From Gemmobacter caeruleus (GTDB lineage: Bacteria; Pseudomonadota; Alphaproteobacteria; Rhodobacterales; Rhodobacteraceae), in NCBI RefSeq assembly GCF_008271655.1, contig NZ_VKKX01000004.1, positions 1 to 53,676 on the forward strand: a stretch of 53,676 bases of DNA, read 5' to 3'. The notes beneath the pieces were generated by a model. The model searched no databases and had not been told where the DNA came from. It was given only the letters and a program-made list of their open reading frames with translations. Positions 339-53,676 of the stretch are shown piece by piece; the stretch's first letter is position 1, and every line of letters begins with the position of its first letter. A program made the position numbers and the translations under genes.

Positions 339-1679
339 TCATCGCCGATGTTCCTGCAGGCCAAGCTCGACCCACATCCAGCCGAAATCGTACTCGGCAA
401 TCGGACCCTCGCCGTGCCCGGCGCTCCGGTTCTCCAGCATCTTCAGCCAGTCGATCACCTTCTCGCGCCCAGCGGACGTGCGCACAGCCTGGCGCGGTGA
501 CTTGCCGCCCAGCGCCGGAATCGGCGCGTCTAGCGTTTCGCGGTAGTGCTTGTCCAGGTGATCCCGCATGAGCTGGCGCGCGATCTCGGGCGGGATTTCA
601 TCCGCCGCCTCGCGTGGCTCGTCACGCCGTTGGTCCGCCCGCATCTGCTCAACCGTCCGGATCGTGGTTAACGGCGCCCTCAGCAGATCCCCGGCAGCCG
701 CGCCAATCAACGTCTGGACCTTGGCCGCGCGCTCGGCAGAGTTGACGGTAACGACCAGCGTCTTGCCCGCCAATTCCAGCGAACCCAGAACGGTGGCGCC
801 CTCCATCTGCGTATCCAGCATGATGCCGCCGCCCGCCTTGCCACCGCGCCCCTTCCGCGTGGCCAGCCAGTTCCAGAACTTCGGTCCTTCCGGCAGGAAG
901 CCGTTCACCCGGTCCAGCCGCTCCGCCACTGCTTTCTGCGTTACGCCGCTGGCAAGCGGGTACCGCAAATCGTGGAACAACACATCGTCGCCGTCCGAAT
1001 TGGTGAACTGCGGCTGTGCCGGGCTGAGGGCGCGGTCAATCTCGATGAACAGCCAGGCGGAGGTGAAGATGGGCGCGCAGCCCATCAGCTGATCGTGCGA
1101 GAGCCGCAGCGCATCTCGCTTCTTCAGCTTCAGGGCATCGCGCAGCCCGGCAAACAGGAAATCCACCGCCTCGGCCCGGAAGGGCAACAGCGCCCCGGAG
1201 ATCACATGATGATCACGCTCGGACACCACCCGCACGGCAATCCGGTCCCATTGTTTCAGCGTGCGCGTGGCGGATTTCTCTCTCACCATGACCGGCGCGG
1301 CATCCGACAGCAGGTCGCGCAGCACCATCGACGTGCCGGGCTGGACATCGCTGACTTCGTATAGACTGACCGGCGCATCCCGCAGCGCGGCGAAATAGGC
1401 CCGGTTCAGCGCCGTTTCCTTCCAGCCGCGCCTTTTCAGATAGAGATCGACGATGTTGCCGTCTTCATAGCGCTGTCCAAGGAAATCCTCGAACCCACAC
1501 CCCCACAGGACGCCTGACCATTGTTCGCCCAGCAGGTCGGCCAAGCCGCCCTGATCGATCTCGAATTCTTCGAGCGCGGGCATCAGGTGTTCGGCGACCA
1601 CATCTTGCAGCCGTTCCCGCCAGTCCCCTTCCCGGCCGATGAAGGCCAGAAGGCCGGAAATGTCGTTGCGTTCAGCCAT
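339..1679 (-). CDS. Uncharacterised 446-aa cargo protein, attL-proximal
   Basis: I do not recognise a confident family. The ATG at 1679 follows GAGG by about 5 bases. No signal peptide or membrane segment is visible, so a cytoplasmic protein is likely. The C-terminal 100 residues contain a compact module with PIPALGGKSPRQAVRT followed by a GREKV helix, a pattern I have seen at the C-terminus of uncharacterised bacterial proteins and which loosely recalls the Xre/MbcA/ParS toxin-binding domain; this is weak. The gene runs leftward toward attL, divergent from the cassette at 1949-4761, with a 269-bp shared upstream region. Its place between attL and integrase marks it as cargo. Function unknown. 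Confidence 0.8.
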   Translation of the reverse strand: MAERNDISGLLAFIGREGDWRERLQDVVAEHLMPALEEFEIDQGGLADLLGEQWSGVLWGCGFEDFLGQRYEDGNIVDLYLKRRGWKETALNRAYFAALRDAPVSLYEVSDVQPGTSMVLRDLLSDAAPVMVREKSATRTLKQWDRIAVRVVSERDHHVISGALLPFRAEAVDFLFAGLRDALKLKKRDALRLSHDQLMGCAPIFTSAWLFIEIDRALSPAQPQFTNSDGDDVLFHDLRYPLASGVTQKAVAERLDRVNGFLPEGPKFWNWLATRKGRGGKAGGGIMLDTQMEGATVLGSLELAGKTLVVTVNSAERAAKVQTLIGAAAGDLLRAPLTTIRTVEQMRADQRRDEPREAADEIPPEIARQLMRDHLDKHYRETLDAPIPALGGKSPRQAVRTSAGREKVIDWLKMLENRSAGHGEGPIAEYDFGWMWVELGLQEHRR

Positions 1680-1948
1680 AAATCCTCACAGCCGCGGATC
1701 ACCTTTGCTTAGCAGGATCTGCGACCGTTAGGCCAGACAGTGGGCGGGACAGAGCAAAGATCAGTTTGCCTGCGAGCAGCGTAGCACATCAACCCGAGCA
1801 CCAATGGAAGATCATCAGAGCGCAGGATGCTGGCAGTGAGTCTGACAAAATCTCCATTTTACTCTTGGAAAGTTTGCCTTTGATGCTGCCAAGACTCCTC
1901 CGAACGGCCATCTGGCGTTATGGCTGAGGAAACGTCGGGAGAACCAAC
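1680..1948. promoter_or_regulatory. Divergent intergenic region between two cargo units
   Basis: These 269 bp separate the leftward gene ending at 339 from the rightward cassette starting at 1949, so both promoters should be here. The stretch is more AT-rich around 1840-1890 than the flanking genes. A ribosome binding site (GGGAG) precedes the ATG at 1949. I see no clear -35/-10 pair and no strong operator palindrome. Confidence 0.45.
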
Positions 1949-2215
1949 ATGCTCAGCCACCATGCCTCAGTGCGATGCCAGCAACGCGGCATCAGGCACG
2001 ACTTGCTTCGTGACCTTCTGTTCCATGCCGACATTGAATTTCACGTTGGCAACAATTGCCGCCTGATCAGAGTGAGCCGGTCCCACGCCGTCCGCGAACG
2101 ACTTGACCAGCGGCTTTCACGCTACGCGGTCATCGTCAGCGATGACAGCCAATGTGTCGTCACGGCCTATCCCGTAAGGTCCAGGGCGGCCATCTCTCGA
2201 TCGAGAAGGGCATGA
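1949..2215 (+). CDS. Small DUF4258-like protein, first gene of three-gene cassette
   Basis: This 88-aa protein has the pattern of DUF4258-type small proteins: an N-terminal His/Arg-rich helix (SHHASVRCQQRGI), a middle G-N-x-R strand and a final strand VVTAYPV. That fold is related to RelE/BrnT-like toxin folds, but a toxin role is not shown. Start is an ATG behind GGGAG. The stop is one base before the start of the 533-aa gene, so the two are translationally linked. It could be a regulator, toxin or accessory subunit of the cassette. Confidence 0.7.
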   Translation: MLSHHASVRCQQRGIRHDLLRDLLFHADIEFHVGNNCRLIRVSRSHAVRERLDQRLSRYAVIVSDDSQCVVTAYPVRSRAAISRSRRA

Positions 2216-2216
2216 A

Positions 2217-3818
2217 ATGAGTGAAGCCAAGCGAGACATTTTCGAGCAGGTGCATCATCACGACCGGCAACGCTTGCGCGCGGTGCTCGGAGATGCACGG
2301 CAAGGCTACACGCTCCGGGATCGCCAGCGGTTCGACGCAGCGCTCGAACTCGGCAAGCGATACAATGCAATCATTCGGGAAGTGAAAGGTGGGCGAAGTG
2401 CGTTTGAAGGCCGCGTGATCGAAATCCTCGATGAGTACGGTTACAGGACCGACACGTTTGATGTCGCAAAGTGGAAGTTGTCAAAGGGAGTTGAACAGGT
2501 CGACACCACCGTAAGGTCAAATCCGAAATACCGATCAATCCCTCAGAAGTCGCTGATCCACTATCTGTCCGCCATTCAGGCGCTCGCCGAGTTCGCAGGC
2601 GAAGATATTGAGAACGCACTCATCTCATTTCTGAAGGCCGCCCGGATGTGGAAAGACGAACCGCTTCCCGATAGCGCTGAAGACAACTGGGATGCGATCA
2701 GCCGACTGCACCATATGCTCACCGCAGTCTGTCAGGGGGTCGCAGCACAAACCGGCATGATGGATGTATTCCGCCGTCTCTATTCTATGCCGCTAACGTG
2801 GCGATACCTCGAGCAGCGCCTGCAGCTTGGCACGATCAGCAATTTCGCTGGCGACTTTAGTCCAGTCGATCGATCCCCACTGTTCGACATCAATATCGAC
2901 GAGACCTTTCCTTTTCCATCGGTTCCGCTGTTGCGCATTCCTCTCGCCTGGGGCGACCTCGCCGTCGAAATCGAAGAAGGCAAAACCTGCATAGCGGCGG
3001 AACCTGGCGACGCTCGTGGGGACGGCATCTTCATGCGTCGTGAGGCGCGGGTAATCCAATATCGGGACATCCACCTGGCCATCGCTCCGCTGAACGACCG
3101 CGACGTTGGTCCAGTCCTGATGTCGCGGGGCCTTGTGGGGCTTCGCATCCCGTCATCGTCGCCAAAAGTGTCAATGGTGTTCGGCACACTCCACTGGTTG
3201 GATACATTGGCAATCCAGCAGGAAGTTCTGCATGACGGCGGTTGGCGACGGATCAAGCTGGAGTTCGATCCTGATCAGGATCGACTGGATCATCAAATAG
3301 CCGGTCCCGGCGACGATTACTCTTGGGAATGCGATCCCGTCGAATACCCGGGAGTTCTCAATTCCGGGGGTGACTATGTGGTCTATCACCGCATGTCGGT
3401 CGATCACTTGCACCATTGGCTCATTGGCGATCACGCACTTGACGGCGAAGGGGCGAACTGCCCGTGGTCCCCGTTTGACGGGGAACCGTGGACTGAGCGT
3501 CCCGGGCTCGTGCTCCCGCCGACCGGCAACCTCTGGGAAGATGCATTCCACGATGCGGACGGGAAAGCTTTACCACTCCTGAGTCCAGTTCGCACAAACG
3601 CATTCTATGTGGAAGCCGCCCTTCACAAGGGTCGAATCCACAAGGCCTTGCTCAACCAGGCCGAAGCACTTCGGCGGCAAGCCGTCCATCTCGTGGAACA
3701 ACGCCGTATTGAAGCAATCGCGGCGCAGGAACGGCTGATGGCTTCCTGGAAATCCGCTCAGCATCCTCAGTCGCTCGGGGAAACACAGGACAAAGGGACG
3801 AGAAATGACACCGAATAA
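2217..3818 (+). CDS. Uncharacterised 533-aa protein of the attL cassette
   Basis: I do not recognise the family. ATG at 2217 has GAAGG 7 bases upstream and starts one base after the preceding stop; the end overlaps the next gene by 14 bases. So it is the centre of a three-gene operon (DUF4258-like, this protein, PD-(D/E)XK protein). The first 170 residues look mainly helical and charged, the middle (about 200-420) is richer in strands with many aromatic and Asp residues, and the C-terminus is a Gln/Glu/Arg-rich helix that may be coiled coil. No ATP-binding motif, metal site or membrane segment stands out. It may be a sensor or structural partner of the downstream nuclease-like protein; that is inference from linkage only. 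Confidence 0.82.
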   Translation: MSEAKRDIFEQVHHHDRQRLRAVLGDARQGYTLRDRQRFDAALELGKRYNAIIREVKGGRSAFEGRVIEILDEYGYRTDTFDVAKWKLSKGVEQVDTTVRSNPKYRSIPQKSLIHYLSAIQALAEFAGEDIENALISFLKAARMWKDEPLPDSAEDNWDAISRLHHMLTAVCQGVAAQTGMMDVFRRLYSMPLTWRYLEQRLQLGTISNFAGDFSPVDRSPLFDINIDETFPFPSVPLLRIPLAWGDLAVEIEEGKTCIAAEPGDARGDGIFMRREARVIQYRDIHLAIAPLNDRDVGPVLMSRGLVGLRIPSSSPKVSMVFGTLHWLDTLAIQQEVLHDGGWRRIKLEFDPDQDRLDHQIAGPGDDYSWECDPVEYPGVLNSGGDYVVYHRMSVDHLHHWLIGDHALDGEGANCPWSPFDGEPWTERPGLVLPPTGNLWEDAFHDADGKALPLLSPVRTNAFYVEAALHKGRIHKALLNQAEALRRQAVHLVEQRRIEAIAAQERLMASWKSAQHPQSLGETQDKGTRNDTE

Positions 3819-4761
3819 TGCCAAGTTGATCCCCGAAGCGACCTACTGGTGGCAATTACTTCCCGCTCTGCCCGAGCGCGCCAGCCAAGAATACTACGCG
3901 CTGCGCCGCATCTGGGCCGACCACACGATGAACACGACCAAACGCGGCCGCGGGTTCTACTGGTGGGGAACGGAAGACAACATGACGCCAGTCCTGTTCC
4001 AGAACTGGGCAGTTCTCGAATCTCCCGAGAGCTTCGCCCCGTTCATTGAAGCGTGCGGCCACAAGGTAAGGAACCTCCGCCGGGTCAGGTGGGCATACGC
4101 CTGTGAGGAAGCTATCGCAGTCGGCTCTTTCCCGGGCGTTGAGGGTCGATTTCTCATCCCGGACATCGTTCTGCACTTTGAAGATGATCTGGGGCCCGGG
4201 CTTTTAGCATTCGAAGTGAAGCGCCCCAAGGTTCGTCCGACCGAAAAGGATGCGAACAAGCTTCGCGCCTACACACGTCTCGGCTCCATGCGCGCCATCG
4301 AGCGCAAGGTTGGTTGTTTCCTTGTCGGATCGACCATGGTGAACGAGGCTACCGCGCTTTCAAGAGACGCCCCTGTAGTTTCTTGGGAGCAGCTGCTGGA
4401 ACTGCAGCGGTCTGCGATGATGCGTGAAAATCCGACCCTCGTACCATGGCTGGAGCGGACCTATGCCTTGCAGGGGATCGGCATGGCCAAGGCGCCGCCA
4501 CCTGCTGCACGCAACGGGCATGCGTCAGAGGAGGCCAGAACTACCATAGTGAGCCTGAACATGCCGGAACGGCAAAAGCGCTTCCTCCTCGGCGCAGAAA
4601 CCGTCGAAGCCCATCTCGGTGGGACCAAGGTTCTTGCGCCCATGGAATGGCTGACGCAGGAGCCGAGTCGTGAGCACCTGTCAGCAAGCCGACTGCAAAC
4701 GACAGCAGCAAGGCGGATTTGTCGATGGGGCGACGGCTGGAATCCGCGGCAGGAGCACTGA
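3805..4761 (+). CDS. Predicted PD-(D/E)XK nuclease of the attL cassette
   Basis: A 318-aa protein carrying a PD-(D/E)XK core: Glu101/Glu102 in a helix, then PD at 119-120 (LIPDIVLHF), then the strand AFEVKRP with Glu137 and Lys139. The helix after it (KDANKLRAYTRLG) resembles the one following the motif in restriction-type nucleases. The family predicts metal-dependent DNA cleavage; target unknown. Start ATG at 3805 lies inside the end of the upstream gene with AGGGACGAG before it, so expression is coupled. Linkage to an unknown large protein and a small DUF4258-like protein in a phage cargo slot suggests a defence or competition role, by inference. Confidence 0.75.
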   Translation: MTPNNAKLIPEATYWWQLLPALPERASQEYYALRRIWADHTMNTTKRGRGFYWWGTEDNMTPVLFQNWAVLESPESFAPFIEACGHKVRNLRRVRWAYACEEAIAVGSFPGVEGRFLIPDIVLHFEDDLGPGLLAFEVKRPKVRPTEKDANKLRAYTRLGSMRAIERKVGCFLVGSTMVNEATALSRDAPVVSWEQLLELQRSAMMRENPTLVPWLERTYALQGIGMAKAPPPAARNGHASEEARTTIVSLNMPERQKRFLLGAETVEAHLGGTKVLAPMEWLTQEPSREHLSASRLQTTAARRICRWGDGWNPRQEH

Positions 4762-48254: not shown

Positions 48255-48343
48255 GGGTGCATTACGACCTCATCTTGGCATGGCAACGCCCCCGATGCAG
48301 GTTACCGTACCTACGCCACCCCGCCCTGCCCCAAGGAGAACGC

Positions 48344-48904
48344 ATGGCCCATTTCTTCACTGCCGACACCCATTTCGCGGATGACCCGGTGCGGCGCTTC
48401 TTCGACCGGCCCTTTGCCTCGGTTGAGGCGATGGACGCCGCGATGATTGCTCGTGCGGGCGTGGTTGGACCCGATGACGACCTGTGGATCATCGGAGACT
48501 TCGCCGCCTGCGAGTCCGACGCCGGACGCATGGCCGCGCAGGCGGGTTTTGCCGCGCTGCCGGGGCGGAAACATCTGGTGCGCGGCAATCACGATCCCGA
48601 CTGGCTGGTTCGCGCGCTGCCATGGGCATCGGTTCACGATCTGGTCGAGATAGGCATCGGAGAGCGCCGCTTTGTCCTGTGCCACTATCCGCTGGTCACC
48701 TGGAACGGCGCGCGGGCCGGAGCGATCCAGCTTTTCGGTCATGTCCACACCCGCTGGCGCGGTGCCGAGGGTCAGGTGAATGTCGGCGTTGATCAGTGGG
48801 ATTTTGCGCCGGTCACCCCGGATCAGGCAGAGTTGGAGGCATTGATGCTGCCTCCGTCTCGTTTGCATCAGATGGCTGAGGGTGTGGAGACGGTCGCAGA
48901 ATGA
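48344..48904 (+). CDS. Calcineurin-like metallophosphoesterase
   Basis: A 186-aa stand-alone metallophosphoesterase with a complete metal site: Asp8 and His10 (FTADTHF), GD51-52, GNHD (81-84), His114 (LCHYPL) and GHVH (132-135). ATG 48344 has AAGGAG 6 bases upstream; the longer in-frame start lacks one. The family hydrolyses phosphodiesters or phosphomonoesters; small members of this YfcE-like kind occur in phages with unknown substrates. It is cargo after the lysis genes, convergent with the leftward operon. It might degrade nucleotide signals, which is speculation. Confidence 0.9.
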   Translation: MAHFFTADTHFADDPVRRFFDRPFASVEAMDAAMIARAGVVGPDDDLWIIGDFAACESDAGRMAAQAGFAALPGRKHLVRGNHDPDWLVRALPWASVHDLVEIGIGERRFVLCHYPLVTWNGARAGAIQLFGHVHTRWRGAEGQVNVGVDQWDFAPVTPDQAELEALMLPPSRLHQMAEGVETVAE

Positions 48905-49038: not shown

Positions 49039-49626
49039 TTAGGGGCGCGGCGGCAGACACAGCTTTTCGCGAATCGCTCCAAGCACCTCAACAGGGTTTT
49101 CGCCTTCCACAAGTCGCCGCATCGGCGTGGTAATATATTTTTCCACATCATCCGTGCTGATCAGGGCATCAAGGGGAACTGCGAAAAGCCAGCTTACCTC
49201 GTCTGAGTGAAGCCAGCGATACTCGTCGGTGACGCACTCCTCGATATAGCCTGACGAGTTGGGGCCTTCGCTATCAAACCCCCATGCGTCCTCAAAATCT
49301 CTGGACGGCGCATACGCCGCAAGAACCTTGGCGCGTTTTCCGTGTTGCCAGTCGCCCTCAACGCCAACGTCGCAGGTAAGCTGGATGGCCAGAGTTATCC
49401 AACCGACATCCTTCTTTTTCCCGTTTGGTGCCTGCCTGACTTTGTAATAAGCCTCCCAGACCGGATATATCCATCCACTATCCTGAGAACCTTCATCAGA
49501 ATGCTCTATAACAAGTTTCTTCTCGTCGCATTCGATCACACTGAATGCCTCGCAGAGCTTGTCGAGGTTTTCAGAAGATCTCAACAGATTCTGGGCAGAT
49601 TGCCAGATGGCTTCGTCAGTGGTCAT
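49039..49626 (-). CDS. Uncharacterised protein, last gene of the attR operon
   Basis: A 195-aa acidic soluble protein with no family that I recognise. It has many aromatic residues (SGWIYPVWEAYYKV, DVGWITLAIQLTCDVG, EYRWLHSDEVSWLFAVP) and looks alpha/beta, with no metal or ATP motif. ATG 49626 follows GAGAGG and overlaps the stop of the PD-(D/E)XK gene by four bases, so the two products are made together. It could be an immunity, inhibitor or sensor partner of that nuclease-like protein. Confidence 0.78.
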   Translation of the reverse strand: MTTDEAIWQSAQNLLRSSENLDKLCEAFSVIECDEKKLVIEHSDEGSQDSGWIYPVWEAYYKVRQAPNGKKKDVGWITLAIQLTCDVGVEGDWQHGKRAKVLAAYAPSRDFEDAWGFDSEGPNSSGYIEECVTDEYRWLHSDEVSWLFAVPLDALISTDDVEKYITTPMRRLVEGENPVEVLGAIREKLCLPPRP

Positions 49627-50369
49627 TTGTGCCTCTCGGTAAAATTGAATTGCGCTGCAGGTACTGATCCGACCGCATTTCCGGGATCAAACTGCCTGCC
49701 TGCTGCGAAAGTAAAACTTGCGGCCGGCGGCATCATGATATCAGGAGGCCATGATCCCAGCACACTTCCCTTCGGAGTGCCCCTGAGAAAATCTTCAGCC
49801 GTTCTGGTCCACGAAATCAATCCGGGATCGTCATTTTTTTCGGTGGACAGACGGCGCAGCCGCTCTGTTACCGCTGGCCATGTCAGGCTATGGAATGTCA
49901 GTTTGGAAAACTCTCCCTCGGCTACCTGCATGGCTTCCGTATGCTTCATCTCCGCTCCGAGCAGAGTATAGCCAATCACGTTCCGATTTTCAGCGGGCAG
50001 GCCGCCGCGGAGACATTCGCCATCACGAAGTGTCCGGACTTCACGACCGACTTGCTCATCACCGAGAGGTGCGCCCCACTTCACCTCCACGATCCAATAG
50101 GCAGGGCCATCATCAGTGCGAATTCTCAGGACCACATCCGGCTCTGCATTTTCTTCCGGGTGCCTCAGATACGGCCAGAGAAAGATTTCTGCGTCACCAC
50201 GCAATTCCTGACCGATCAGTGCCTTCAGTGCCAACTTCTGCGCAGGTGCGGAAAGAAACTGGATCGTGCCAAACAGCGCCGAGGTTATCAAATCCTCGCG
50301 CGGCTGCTTTCCAACGCCGTCTATCACCCGATCGAGCCTAGCTTTTCTTGCGTTTATCGCATGAAACAT
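49623..50369 (-). CDS. Predicted PD-(D/E)XK nuclease of the attR operon
   Basis: A 248-aa protein with a PD-(D/E)XK core: REDLITSALFGTIQFL with Glu25 near the N-terminus, EPDVVLRI with Asp78, and YWIVEVKWGA with Glu95 and Lys97, followed by a helix EQVGREVRTL. The early ED-x-x-T helix is seen in several defence-related nucleases of this superfamily. It lies 32 bases after the WYL gene and overlaps the unknown gene, so it belongs to the same leftward operon as the AAA+ ATPase. Probable effector nuclease; catalysis is inferred from residues. Confidence 0.78.
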   Translation of the reverse strand: MFHAINARKARLDRVIDGVGKQPREDLITSALFGTIQFLSAPAQKLALKALIGQELRGDAEIFLWPYLRHPEENAEPDVVLRIRTDDGPAYWIVEVKWGAPLGDEQVGREVRTLRDGECLRGGLPAENRNVIGYTLLGAEMKHTEAMQVAEGEFSKLTFHSLTWPAVTERLRRLSTEKNDDPGLISWTRTAEDFLRGTPKGSVLGSWPPDIMMPPAASFTFAAGRQFDPGNAVGSVPAAQFNFTERHK

Positions 50370-50401
50370 TACCCACCCCCGTCATGCCTTGAGATTTCCG
50401 G

Positions 50402-51352
50402 TCACATATCATTCAGGTTTCCTTTTGATACGACTTCCACATTCTCCCCCCATCTGGCCACATACCATTCCATTTCCTGCCGCCCGCCAGCCCGGAACCG
50501 CACCACCAGCGAGCCGTTGGGCAGCCGCTCCGTTTCCTGCTTCGGATGAAAGACATAGGTCGCCGCCTCGTCCGCGACTTCGGGCAGAAAGCGCCATTCC
50601 ACGTCCTGCGGCTCTTCGCGCCAGATGCCGAAGCTTTCGGCCAGCCAGTCCTGCAGGTCGAAGCCCTCGGGGCGCTCATAGATGTCATCCTCCAACGCGA
50701 TGCGCTCAAAGCCGGCCAAGGCAAACAGGCGCAGGTCGTCTTGGTATTCGCTCCAAGCCAGCAGGTATTGCCGACCCTCACCGAACAGCATGGCGATCGG
50801 GCCAAGCCGGGTGTCGCGCGACAGCTTGCCCGAAGCACGGGCGCGGTGGTCGGCCGAGATCATCGCCCCGGCAAGAATCGCCTCGCGCAGCTTGCGCAGG
50901 ATGTCGGGGTCAATGCGTTCGCGAGGACCGGGGCGGAAGGCGACGCCATCGGCCATCAGCTGCGCCTCGAGGTCGGCAGCGACGCGACGGCGGCGGTCCT
51001 CGCGGAACATCGCCTGCACCTTGGACAGCAGCCGTTCCAGCGTTTCGGCGGTGTCGAGGTCGCCCTCGCGCCGTGCGATGCTAGCGGCCCGGTGCCCGGC
51101 CGTCAGTTCGTCGATGGTGGGTTCCACCATCTTTCCCAGCGTGCCAGCTGGAAAGCGCCAGTATTTCTGGCCGTTCTCGCCCGGACGCTCCTCGAGCTGG
51201 GGGAAGGCGCGCAGCACGGCATCGCGCATCCGCTCGGCCGTGCGCCGGGACACGCCGAAGGTCTGTTCGATGTCGGCAATCGAGACACCTTCGGCCGAGC
51301 CCTGCATCATCACGGCCAGCCGCAGCAGATCTTCCTGACGGGAATAGCGCAT
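50402..51352 (-). CDS. WYL-domain transcriptional regulator
   Basis: A 316-aa protein: N-terminal winged helix (SIADIEQTFGVSRRTAERMRDAV, about 23-46 in two parts), a helical linker, a WYL-type domain (about 150-235 with RLGPIAMLFGEGRQYLLAWS) and a C-terminal WCX extension ending in EWYVARWGENVEVV. WYL proteins bind ligands, often nucleotides or single-stranded nucleic acid, and regulate defence operons. ATG 51352 has GAGG upstream, 51 bases after the AAA+ gene. It may repress its own operon or, lacking a visible CI repressor, the prophage. Confidence 0.92.
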   Translation of the reverse strand: MRYSRQEDLLRLAVMMQGSAEGVSIADIEQTFGVSRRTAERMRDAVLRAFPQLEERPGENGQKYWRFPAGTLGKMVEPTIDELTAGHRAASIARREGDLDTAETLERLLSKVQAMFREDRRRRVAADLEAQLMADGVAFRPGPRERIDPDILRKLREAILAGAMISADHRARASGKLSRDTRLGPIAMLFGEGRQYLLAWSEYQDDLRLFALAGFERIALEDDIYERPEGFDLQDWLAESFGIWREEPQDVEWRFLPEVADEAATYVFHPKQETERLPNGSLVVRFRAGGRQEMEWYVARWGENVEVVSKGNLNDM

Positions 51353-51403
51353 GATGCCTCATTTGCCTCTGGCTCCGACTTTGGCCGTTGCGGTCGCGCC
51401 CTG

Positions 51404-53416
51404 TCAACGGCCGAAGCCGATGGGCCGGGCAGCGCCTTCCTTCGCCGCGGACTCGCGCCGCAGTTCGGCGAGGATGGTCGTCGTGTCTTCCTTACCAAGG
51501 GCGCGGATCCGGCGGGCGACATTGGCGAAGTCGCCCGGGGCCAGCCGGTCCAGCGCCGCGACCTCTGCCGGGACCGGCGCCGCGAAGTGCGCGGCCCAGG
51601 CAAGCGGTAACTGATCCGGGCGCAGCCAGTCGAACCGGATGCGGAAGGTGAAGCGCCGCTGCGTTGCCGGGTCGAGGTGTTCCGCCAGGTTGGTGGTGCA
51701 GACTAAGGGGAGCGGATGGCTCTCCATCCAGGTCAGCATCTCGTTGACCTGGCTCACCTCCCACTGACGGACAGCATTGCGCCGGTCGGCAAGCAGGCTG
51801 TCGGCCTCGTCGAAGATCAGCAGCGCCCCCTCGGCCCGGGCATCCGCGAAGGCGCGGGCAATCGCCTGCTCGGTGCCGCCGACCCACATCGACAGCAGGT
51901 CCGAGGCCCGCTTCTCGATGACCGGCAGGCCCAGTTGCCGCGCGAGGTGGCGGGCCCAGGCGCTCTTGCCCGTTCCGGCCGGACCGTCGAGGCAGAAGGA
52001 CAGCCGCAGCGGTTTGGGGGTGGCGGCCAGTCGCGCTTCCAGCAGGGTCAGGCTGGTATCGGTGTTGGCCAGCGTCGGAACCCACGGCACCTCGGAGTGG
52101 TGGCGGGGCGGCGGCGCGACACCGCCATTGGTCACCTTGGCCGACGCCCCGAGAACCTGCTCGAAGGTGTCGATCCCGCCGCCGCAGGCCCGCGCGACCC
52201 GCATCGCGTCTGCCACCAGCGCCGGTGGCTGATTGTGGGATTCCGCGAGCGACGTGATCGCCGCGGCATCTTCGATTGCCACATGCCGATCCGCCAGGCG
52301 CTGCCAGATCCGTTTGCGGATTGGCCCTGCGGGCGGGCGCATCTCGGCCGAGAAGGCCATCCTGCGCAGAAAGGCCGGATCGCAGGTCTCGATCGAATTG
52401 GTCGTCCAGAGGGTCGGGACCGGATTGGTTTCCAGGAGCCGGTTGGCAAAGACTTTCGACGTCCGCTCCGGCCGGAAGAAGGGAAGAACGGGCCGACCTC
52501 CAAACAAATCTTCCATTTCATCCAGCAGCAGGACGGTGTCACGCCTCGACGCCAGCATCCGACCCGCGATGCCCAGTTCGGCCAGTCGCTCGCCCCGCGA
52601 CGGTTCTTCGCCGCTGTCGTCCGCCTCGCCGACCGCGCGCAGGCTGGCGCCAAGTTCACGGGCCAGAACCTTGCAGAATTCGGTCTTGCCCGTCCCCGGC
52701 GGCCCGTAGAGCAGGATGTTCACCCCGCGCGTACCCTCGGCGAGGGCCTTCTGCAGGAGCTTGCGCATGATGGCTGCACTGTCGCCCAGCCCCGTGAAGT
52801 CGCCCCATTCCGCTTCGGGCGGCGGTGCGGGCGGGAACAGGAGCGCGACGAGTTCTTCGATGTTGCCGAAGTCGGCCATCAGCGCACCGGCGAGGCGATC
52901 CGATACCGTGTAGGGGATCGACTGGCGCGACCAGTTGCGCCCGTCGTTCTGCAAGAGCCCCGAAGTCCGCAGCCGACCATCTGGCCGAAGCGCCGCACGG
53001 ACGGCAGTGTGATCGGCACCGGCGAACTGGGCGATCAGGAACGGCAGCGTCACGTCCTGCGTCTGGAGTGCCCGGTCGACCACATGCTCGAACATGTCGA
53101 AGCTGCGATAGCTGGCGAAGAACTCGAGGATCCGCGCCTCCACGTCGGTCAGGCCGAAGTGCTGCCCGAGGCGCGCCGCGTTGATCCGGACGAGGTTTTC
53201 CTCGCGTGGATCATCACCGCCACGCAGCTCCTCCAGAAGACCGCGTACTCTCCCCCACCAGGCCGCCCCTGGCCGGGTTCGCGGCCGTTCCGGGCATTCG
53301 ACGTCGGTCAGGTATTCGATCCAGCCCGGCACCTCCTTGGCCACCTTGCTGCCGGGGCCGAAGCGATCGGCGAGGACCGCGACGAGTTCGAGTGCGAGAT
53401 GTTTTTCCGTGGTCAT
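51404..53416 (-). CDS. Double AAA+ ATPase, first gene of the attR operon
   Basis: A 670-aa protein with two AAA+ modules. Module 1: Walker A GPPGTGKT (238-245), Walker B LLLDEMEDL (297-304), sensor WTTNSIE and arginine finger region FLRRMAF. Module 2: Walker A GPAGTGKS (478-485), Walker B LLIFDEADSLL (532-542), pore-loop-like WVGGTEQAI and Arg finger ATQRRF. The N-terminal 200 residues are a helical domain of unknown role. It would form a ring that remodels protein or nucleic acid. ATG 53416 follows GGAGAGAGA. Linkage to WYL and PD-(D/E)XK genes suggests a defence complex. Confidence 0.92.
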   Translation of the reverse strand: MTTEKHLALELVAVLADRFGPGSKVAKEVPGWIEYLTDVECPERPRTRPGAAWWGRVRGLLEELRGGDDPREENLVRINAARLGQHFGLTDVEARILEFFASYRSFDMFEHVVDRALQTQDVTLPFLIAQFAGADHTAVRAALRPDGRLRTSGLLQNDGRNWSRQSIPYTVSDRLAGALMADFGNIEELVALLFPPAPPPEAEWGDFTGLGDSAAIMRKLLQKALAEGTRGVNILLYGPPGTGKTEFCKVLARELGASLRAVGEADDSGEEPSRGERLAELGIAGRMLASRRDTVLLLDEMEDLFGGRPVLPFFRPERTSKVFANRLLETNPVPTLWTTNSIETCDPAFLRRMAFSAEMRPPAGPIRKRIWQRLADRHVAIEDAAAITSLAESHNQPPALVADAMRVARACGGGIDTFEQVLGASAKVTNGGVAPPPRHHSEVPWVPTLANTDTSLTLLEARLAATPKPLRLSFCLDGPAGTGKSAWARHLARQLGLPVIEKRASDLLSMWVGGTEQAIARAFADARAEGALLIFDEADSLLADRRNAVRQWEVSQVNEMLTWMESHPLPLVCTTNLAEHLDPATQRRFTFRIRFDWLRPDQLPLAWAAHFAAPVPAEVAALDRLAPGDFANVARRIRALGKEDTTTILAELRRESAAKEGAARPIGFGR

Positions 53417-53549
53417 CTTCTCTCTCCGTTGATGAAGAGAGGATGCAGTACGCGCACGTCAGAAACGGACGTATCGAACGGCGAAGCCCGGTGATGCCTG
53501 CCAATGCGGGCTTATGCGCGCCGTTGCGGTTTTTCTGGTGTCGTGTTGA
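53417..53549. promoter_or_regulatory. Promoter region of the leftward attR operon
   Basis: These 133 bp between attR and the AAA+ start must hold the operon promoter. A small dyad ACGTC (53456-53460) and GACGT (53468-53472), 7 bases apart, lies about 40-55 bp upstream of the start and could be an operator for the WYL regulator. No clear -35/-10 pair was found. Confidence 0.4.
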
Positions 53550-53565
53550 TGTGGCGTTGATGTAA
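53545..53565 (+). repeat. Tandem GTTGATGT motif at attR (possible integrase arm sites)
   Basis: GTTGATGTGG followed by CGTTGATGTAA matches the tandem at 268-288 in 18 of 21 positions. It spans the inner edge of the right repeat. The inner copy at base 7 onward of attL has only one unit inside the window. Confidence 0.4.
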
Positions 53566-53579
53566 ACCGAAATGCCTAA

Positions 53580-53602
53580 AACCCGACGATTTACGTCGGG
53601 TT
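53580..53602 (-). terminator. tRNA-Met terminator hairpin (attR copy)
   Basis: Same 9-bp stem and ATTTA loop as at 31-53. In this copy it should terminate the functional tRNA-Met transcript before it enters the prophage. Confidence 0.75.
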
Positions 53603-53629
53603 CTAAGTATCTGACATATTTGAGAGATT

Positions 53630-53676
53630 TGGTTGCGGGGGCAGGATTTGAACCTGCGGCCTTCAGGTTATGAGCC
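53630..53676 (-). tRNA. tRNA-Met(CAT), 3' part; 5' part beyond the window
   Basis: Minus-strand reading gives anticodon loop CTCATAA with anticodon CAT, the variable region, a T arm with TTCAAAT loop, the acceptor 3' strand and encoded CCA. The gene is cut by the window end within the anticodon stem. T-arm and acceptor ending CCCCGCAACCA fit an elongator rather than initiator tRNA, but the missing 5' half prevents a firm distinction. Confidence 0.85.

Follow-up and report, generated by a model that had tools for sequence, protein, structure and literature searches.

A probable inducible defence operon with an AAA+-WYL header and exchangeable cargo on a mobile element of Gemmobacter caeruleus

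The window analysed here, the whole of a 53,676-nt stretch of Gemmobacter caeruleus contig NZ_VKKX01000004.1 (identical to IMG/VR contig 2891483275_000001), carries at 49039-53416 four minus-strand genes for a two-ring AAA+ ATPase, a WYL regulator, a PD-(D/E)XK nuclease and a small partner protein, next to an attachment (att) site of the tRNA-Met type. The locus is a real, intact, mobile operon of separable modules. It is probably (at a probability of roughly 0.6) an activator-run, inducible defence operon of mobile elements, composed of two modules: a header, formed by the ATPase and regulator genes, and an exchangeable, mostly nuclease cargo. This reading is built on gene order, homologies, the conservation of an operator-like site, the exchange of cargo and a mosaic structure, all of which are directly visible when the loci are compared. 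The features on which the argument depends are the following (aa, amino acids).

51404..53416, minus strand: two-ring AAA+ ATPase of 670 aa, Cdc48/AFG2-like (P0004), first gene of the operon; from Pfam, PHROG and PDB matches and motifs
50402..51352, minus strand: WYL-WCX regulator of 316 aa, DriD-type (P0003, also P3); from a full-length phmmer match to DriD structures and a residue check
49623..50369, minus strand: PD-(D/E)XK nuclease of 248 aa, PDC-M15A-like (P0002, also P2); from PADLOC and Foldseek
49039..49626, minus strand: partner protein of 195 aa (P0001, also P1), its start overlapping the nuclease stop by 4 nt; kept beside the nuclease in L015, L020-L023, L026 and L028
53454..53474, minus strand: predicted operator before the AAA+ gene, an inverted repeat (ATACGTC-N7-GACGTGC); from its DriD-like 7-N7-7 geometry
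53441..53446, minus strand: putative weak -10-like element at fixed spacing to the operator; from base conservation in upstream regions
53630..53676, no strand assigned: att core, the 47-nt 3' half of tRNA-Met at the right end of the window, inside a 127-nt end repeat

Gene order, header and cargo

The four open reading frames (ORFs) of the window's ORF list, of 195, 248, 316 and 670 aa within 49039-53416, have the positions, lengths and intergenic spacings (51, 32 and -4 nt) given in a preliminary description of this DNA, and are presumably read as a single transcript. That description had proposed that the co-occurrence and order of homologues be examined, which was done by tblastn of the four proteins against fetched loci, numbered L004 and onwards (matches above 45 bits kept; overlapping rows left out in one of the two runs). 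All four genes are found in the same order in five loci, namely the window, two Paracoccus genomes (P. yeei ATCC BAA-599, L020; P. marinus, L021) and two IMG/VR contigs (2773857812, L028; a metagenome, L026), and because the same genes keep the same order in four other loci, the set is more than a chance assembly. Five of the eight close P2-P1 pairs lie inside this four-gene operon, and P0002 and P0001 keep 47-96% identity, together with their motifs, in L020-L023 and L026. No published description of the set was found among the matches listed in the open-licence literature, judged by title and the start of the abstract.

Of 390 genomes sampled from the order, 13 have the ATPase (E <= 1e-40), as do 4 of 147 relatives (E <= 1e-20), the genome of the window itself being included in both counts. 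Thirty-five ATPase loci were inspected, comprising 16 whole-genome, 2 genome-contig, 5 viral and 11 plasmid loci and the window; the plasmid loci are 11 of 228 matching records in the plasmid collection, 12 of which cover more than 80% of the protein. A homologue of P0003 lies somewhere in the stretch in 28 of the 35 by tblastn (in L063 and L065 as no more than a fragment), and a WYL gene is annotated in a further four (L008, L010, L011 and L012); neither tblastn nor annotation gave a WYL gene in the stretches of L014, L052 and L064.

Seventeen loci with an ATPase identity of at least 59% form a close-header group, in which L027 and L026 probably represent a single allele. The cargo behind the WYL gene is P2-P1 in five of them and an ADP-ribosylglycohydrolase (ARG) gene in six (L004, L005, L029 and L055-L057). 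An HNH-type gene stands there in two (L050, with a nuclease and a helicase; L025, where the homologue is cut short), a gene read as a phosphoesterase and followed by a nuclease and a helicase in L051, and a PDDEXK_4-like nuclease with a partner in L053; in L027 and L054 the contig ends. A PD-(D/E)XK-type gene thus lies beyond the WYL gene in 13 of the 15 close-header loci that have sequence there. The ARG gene is followed by a large PD-(D/E)XK nuclease in five of the six ARG loci (L029 has none) and a UvrD-type helicase is present in four (the stretch of L004 ends first), so that L004, L005 and L055-L057 resemble the ARG-centred systems with WYL regulators, restriction endonucleases and helicases that are predicted in a part of PMC9503650. 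The ARG protein of L057 carries an N-terminal phosphatase domain, as do fusions among those predictions. The window operon differs in that none of its proteins matches the ADP-ribosylglycohydrolase family in Pfam, and section 3.8 of PMC9503650 does not name a two-ring AAA+ gene. Among more distant ATPase loci, L052, L058 and L060-L062 have other or unrecognised neighbours, and L065 has a PDC-M15A-like gene (E 1.6e-15) directly behind the AAA gene. An ARG gene and a HEPN gene lie between two diverged ATPase gene copies in L063 (1704-9015).

The operon is mosaic. The blastn homology to the window stops at 50433 in L025 and L029, at 50430 in L026 and at 50432 in L053 and L054, in all five loci roughly 30 nt short of the WYL gene's end; in L020 and L021 it continues through the cargo. 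The cargo of L026 is homologous yet too diverged for blastn (P2 51%, P1 47%). In blocks of 250 nt, the window is identical to L025 (100%, rounded) from about 53426 to 52180 and 84-87% identical to it in the second half of the WYL gene, whereas its identity to L028 is 72-87% as far as about 50930, rises to 95% in the following block and is 100% (rounded) from about 50676 to 48200. The nearest relative thus differs between the two ends of the operon, which is most simply explained by recombination within or close to the WYL gene, and the window operon is itself a recombinant. Between header and cargo, the junction is the 3' end of the WYL gene. A junction at this position would allow defence cassettes to be exchanged while the regulation stays.

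Several of the loci carry recognised defence genes. Upstream of the operon in L028 are SIR2 (E 2.3e-125), HerA (E 2.2e-238) and a type ISP restriction-modification gene, possibly in an adjacent element; L053 has partial, RADAR-like matches to RdrA (2e-18) and RdrB (9.2e-31); and L011 has the BREX genes PglZ and BrxD by annotation. L008 contains PDC-M27B (E 1.3e-242), an OLD-like ATPase lies beside P2-P1 in L015, and a large ORF read as HsdR lies beside PDC-M15A/B in L090. In L022 there is no defence match, and uracil-DNA-glycosylase and MFS genes stand in front of P2-P1. Because of the SIR2-HerA, RADAR-like and BREX neighbours and the exchange of cargo, a defence role of the operon is better grounded than in the preliminary description, and it is likely.

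The regulator, its predicted operator and the encoded enzymes

The WYL and WCX domains of P0003 exceed the Pfam cut-offs, and what had been described as a WYL regulator can be narrowed down, by sequence, to an activator of the DriD type. Residues 1-316 of P0003 align with residues 5-316 of DriD, a WYL-domain activator from Caulobacter crescentus, in 9PFQ chain Q (phmmer, E 2.4e-48; also 8TP8), through the helix-turn-helix (HTH), the linker, the WYL domain and the WCX domain. According to the text of PMC12340889 seen here, single-stranded DNA (ssDNA) activates DriD, which keeps RNA polymerase at poor promoters. All six checked HTH residues are identical in the two proteins, as are 9 of 14 checked positions of the RNA polymerase interface listed in the same text (G18, S19, A20, E21, R65, R120, R121, R122 and E128). 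Given this extent of identity, P0003 most plausibly activates the operon and thereby feeds back positively on its own gene. The likeness includes a predicted operator of 7-N7-7 geometry at a fixed site over the likely -35; unlike the DriD case, the target operon of the window begins with a two-ring AAA+ gene, the regulator is encoded within its operon and the RxxR motif of the WYL domain is altered. Two further WYL proteins of the same genome, at C4:47827-48765 (L094) and C17:5437-6384 (L095), have 36% and 32% identity to P0003, and their contigs also hold the tRNA-Met att sequence.

All 21 upstream regions that were compared, that of the window among them, have a site resembling ATACGTC-C-NN-ATCT-GACGTAT, which scores 13-18 of 19; the poorest fits are those of L006 and L059 (13 of 19), and the promoters of L025, L053 and L054 are near-copies of that of the window and not independent. 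In 16 regions the distance from the site to the ATPase start is 57-59 nt; it is greater in five (72-76 nt; 126 in L006), whose start was taken from the BLAST match and may be misplaced. Among shuffled upstream regions, 154 of 10,500 reach a score of 13 and 2 reach 15, a test that is circular because the consensus was read by eye from the same regions. The DriD consensus ATACGAC(N7)GTCGTAT, as printed in PMC12340889, scores best or joint-best at the predicted site in 18 of the 21 regions, those of L020, L028 and L059 having a better match elsewhere. The sum of its best scores is 206, against 171 +/- 3.7 (maximum 182) in 300 shuffled sets, and a spacer of 7 scores best among spacers of 3-12 (18 regions). 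A matrix from 13 loci, built without the window and without seven loci that resemble it closely, and with site positions still taken from the eye-read consensus, gives its top site in the window at 53454-53474, with 22.1 bits against 12.5 for the next separate site.

The exact operator sequence of the window is unique in its own genome, where 2-3 mismatches yield two matches against three for a reversed control pattern; an exact search of 101 relatives with the consensus, from which the window's own site itself differs, gave no match. In the three loci with P2-P1 alone (L015, L022 and L023), no position of the retrieved stretch has an operator score above 13. The tenth base past the operator is A in 20 of the 21 regions, as would be expected if a weak -10 lay at a constant distance from it. 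By sequence, the predicted site is built like a DriD-type operator: half-sites of 7 nt, 7 nt apart, close to the -35.

P0004 contains two AAA stretches (PF00004; Pfam AAA E 1.2e-36), matches phrog_10401 (E 1.2e-76) and resembles Cdc48/VCP-like ATPases in the PDB. Walker A, Walker B (DE) and the RR motif are found in both rings in all 24 aligned sequences, window included, and the aromatic pore loop of ring 2 (MWVGG in the window) is kept in all 24. These motifs bear out the two-ring AAA+ motor recognised earlier, and characterize P0004 as an ATPase of Cdc48/AFG2 type with two complete modules and a pore loop. IetAS was considered as a known counterpart. IetA has one ring and a protease partner. 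P0004 scores against IetA with E 4.1e-26, its best stretch being in the second ring, but identity with IetAS is rejected, because the ATPase lies far below the curated cut-off (87.5 against 510 bits for NCBIfam IteA) and the Pfam scan gave no protease family among the four window proteins.

The preliminary description could assign the operon to no named defence system. The whole set indeed matches none in PADLOC, but the nuclease on its own is the PADLOC candidate PDC-M15A (PDLC04456; E 3.7e-14, residues 23-178). Residues E25, D78, E95, K97 and Q106 are invariant across seven aligned sequences, in agreement with the core residues claimed for a nuclease-like protein. No nuclease family of Pfam matches P0002, and a PDB sequence search with its profile gave no useful match. 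In the structural model (mean predicted local distance difference test score, pLDDT, 67.6), roughly residues 22-190 lie in blocks of 65-95, and Foldseek gives probabilities of 0.99 for MspJI, 0.92 for FokI and 0.77 for Cap4, with only two matches at E <= 0.001. Core motif and model together place P0002 in the PD-(D/E)XK superfamily with a restriction-endonuclease-like fold.

P0001, described earlier as a coupled unknown protein, overlaps the nuclease gene by 4 nt and has no match at E <= 1 in four libraries and no PDB sequence match better than E 0.08. Its identification as PDC-M15B is rejected, because PADLOC gives no such match, and likewise none for the partners in L022, L023, L026 and L092; the partners in L090 and L091 do match PDC-M15B. 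PDC-M15 is a PADLOC candidate of which we know of no test. The window pair is like PDC-M15 in that its nuclease matches PDC-M15A and, as at L090 and L091, is encoded by a gene running into that of a small partner lying downstream; it differs from PDC-M15 in a partner without a PDC-M15B match and in its place behind the AAA+-WYL header; it would thus supply a second partner family for this candidate. At L092 5409-6753, a PDC-M15A-like nuclease has a partner that is 26% like P0001 (E 1e-6) and is not PDC-M15B, and this pair is possibly a bridge between the partner types.

The nuclease pairs of Croceicoccus (L014) and Methylomonas (L012) were considered as relatives of P2-P1 and rejected: one nuclease gave 22% in BLAST (E 0.023), the remaining comparisons were no better than chance, and the nucleases cluster instead with that of L053. 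A second family of nuclease and small partner stands beside the same ATPase, at L012 11216-12579, L014 8707-10049 and L053 8978-10415; its nucleases form one cluster, those of L053 and L014 match PDDEXK_4 weakly, and the partners in L012 and L014 are related.

Proposed mechanism and alternative explanations

In the mechanism proposed for the operon, the DriD-type WYL protein would bind the inverted repeat, which extends over the likely -35 region of the ATPase promoter, and switch on the whole operon together with its own gene, which would create positive feedback. The trigger sensed by the WYL protein would be a nucleic acid or nucleotide that signals infection or DNA damage. The two-ring motor probably threads and remodels a protein or nucleoprotein substrate by means of the aromatic pore loop of ring 2, and the small co-translated partner probably loads or restrains the restriction-fold nuclease, which would cut the DNA of an incoming phage or plasmid or that of the infected cell. 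The header module is reused with differing cargos, mostly nucleases, across other prophages, plasmids and islands. Activation in place of repression, the signal, the substrate of the ATPase, the target of cutting and defence against phages are what we infer in this scheme. The predicted promoter is concrete and testable, and lets one ask which signal induces such operons.

A more general idea, which is tentative and to which we give somewhat less than even odds, is that the AAA+-WYL pair is a "socket" of alphaproteobacterial prophages, plasmids and islands, with a DriD-type activator whose ligand pocket is retuned and which drives its own operon through a conserved operator, a motor licensing any effector that is plugged in, and cassettes swapped by homologous recombination through the AAA and WYL genes. 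If so, the socket would be an activator-controlled immune platform with interchangeable warheads and not one fixed system.

Several observations weigh against an activator-run defence operon. Five of the DriD interface residues are not conserved in P0003 (E27D, D71L, F74M, S118D and P125A). PafBC requires an RxxR motif for ssDNA binding, according to a passage of PMC11804915, and the second Arg of this motif (equated by eye with RSWR of DriD) is replaced in 19 of 23 aligned ATPase-linked WYL proteins, P0003 included, and retained by the four most distant ones. Because of this replacement, ssDNA may not be the signal, and the WYL protein may respond to another nucleic-acid or nucleotide ligand. 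The fold matches of P0002 have low TM-scores of about 0.3, and the fold search proposed earlier for P0001, the product of the gene at 49039, gave no match at E <= 0.001 from a middling model (pLDDT 68.5). The set is also rare, P0002 being found in its own genome only, both among 390 sampled genomes of the order and in a class-wide profile search (1 of 385), and the defence genes nearby may be part of adjoining elements. Finally, three of the eight close P2-P1 pairs have no header in the fetched stretch, namely those of plasmid pAMI7 (L015, where the P0001 match is split over two frames), Acetobacter (L022) and Ruegeria (L023).

These headerless pairs favour the view that two independent defence units share a transcript, the AAA+-WYL pair being one and the PDC-M15-like pair, which would profit from the inducible promoter, the other. 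The occurrence of the header with other cargos, or with none recognised, and the separate recombination of the modules point in the same direction, and the earlier suggestion that the two halves are separable is confirmed by fetched loci in which each module occurs without the other. This view has nearly an even chance of being right; it is compatible with the promoter and the exchange assumed for the activator-run operon, and denies only functional coupling. For coupling speak the PD-(D/E)XK-type gene among the next genes in 13 of the 15 close-header loci, the PDC-M15A-like gene directly behind the AAA gene in L065 and the four-gene order kept in five loci. A different question is whether the WYL protein acts as a repressor relieved by a ligand. 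WYL regulators encoded with immune loci, CapW of CBASS and BrxR of BREX, are described as repressors in passages of PMC9122601 and PMC11804915. P0003, however, has full-length homology to DriD, the identical residues G18, A20, R120 and R121 and an operator of DriD geometry and position, and the BrxR boxes, which PMC9122601 describes as 11-bp repeats with a 5-bp spacer, are unlike the operator of the window, so that repression is unlikely. The contrast gives the predicted DriD-type activator and operator in a likely defence operon their interest.

It is distinctly unlikely that the genes serve the prophage itself, in replication, recombination, DNA injection or superinfection control, and not general host defence. 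The operon does lie at the att end of a prophage, and the PHROG of the AAA protein is described merely as 'ATPase'; relatives of the operon, however, occur on plasmids, some beside SIR2-HerA, RADAR-like or BREX genes, and only 18 of 50,697 records in the phage collection match the ATPase, all of them partially and none over 80% of its length. A partly decayed remnant of a counter-ADP-ribosylation system of the ARG type, from which the ADP-ribosylglycohydrolase has been lost, is suggested by the six loci with ARG directly behind the same header and by the predicted ARG systems cited above, yet it is very unlikely: all four genes of the window are intact, separate relatives of the cargo exist, and the identity and motifs retained by these P2 and P1 relatives argue against decay.

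Attachment site and neighbouring genes

The last 127 nt of the window (53550-53676) are the same as its first 127 nt, which is the longest exact overlap of its ends, and 47 of these nucleotides are the 3' half of tRNA-Met. Because its 127-nt ends are identical, the contig closes on itself at the att site, as would a circular excised form or a collapsed array; with its length of 127 nt, the overlap looks like one left by an assembler k-mer. In such a contig 'attR' is inseparable from attP, and the position assigned earlier to the operon therefore holds as that of one apparent operon beside a tRNA-Met-type att site. The att core is present exactly on contigs C13 and C4 of the same genome, and a whole tRNA-Met on C4 and C8 (ARAGORN). 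Five more copies of the tRNA-Met 3' half, with differing flanks, are distributed over contigs C4, C8, C13 and C17, two of them inside complete tRNA-Met genes, and several elements have probably integrated at tRNA-Met sites of this genome.

A second cargo group lies beside the same att site at the opposite end of the window (339-4761). It consists of a 446-aa minus-strand protein with a weak C-terminal Xre/MbcA/ParS match below the Pfam cut-off, and of two overlapping plus-strand genes (533 and 318 aa) with no Pfam or PADLOC match, the 318-aa product having a nuclease-like EVK, judged by eye. Between the phage late genes and the operon, the window has at 48257-48904 a weak match to calcineurin-like phosphoesterases, just below the Pfam cut-off, and a gene of this kind also adjoins the operon in L020 and L028.

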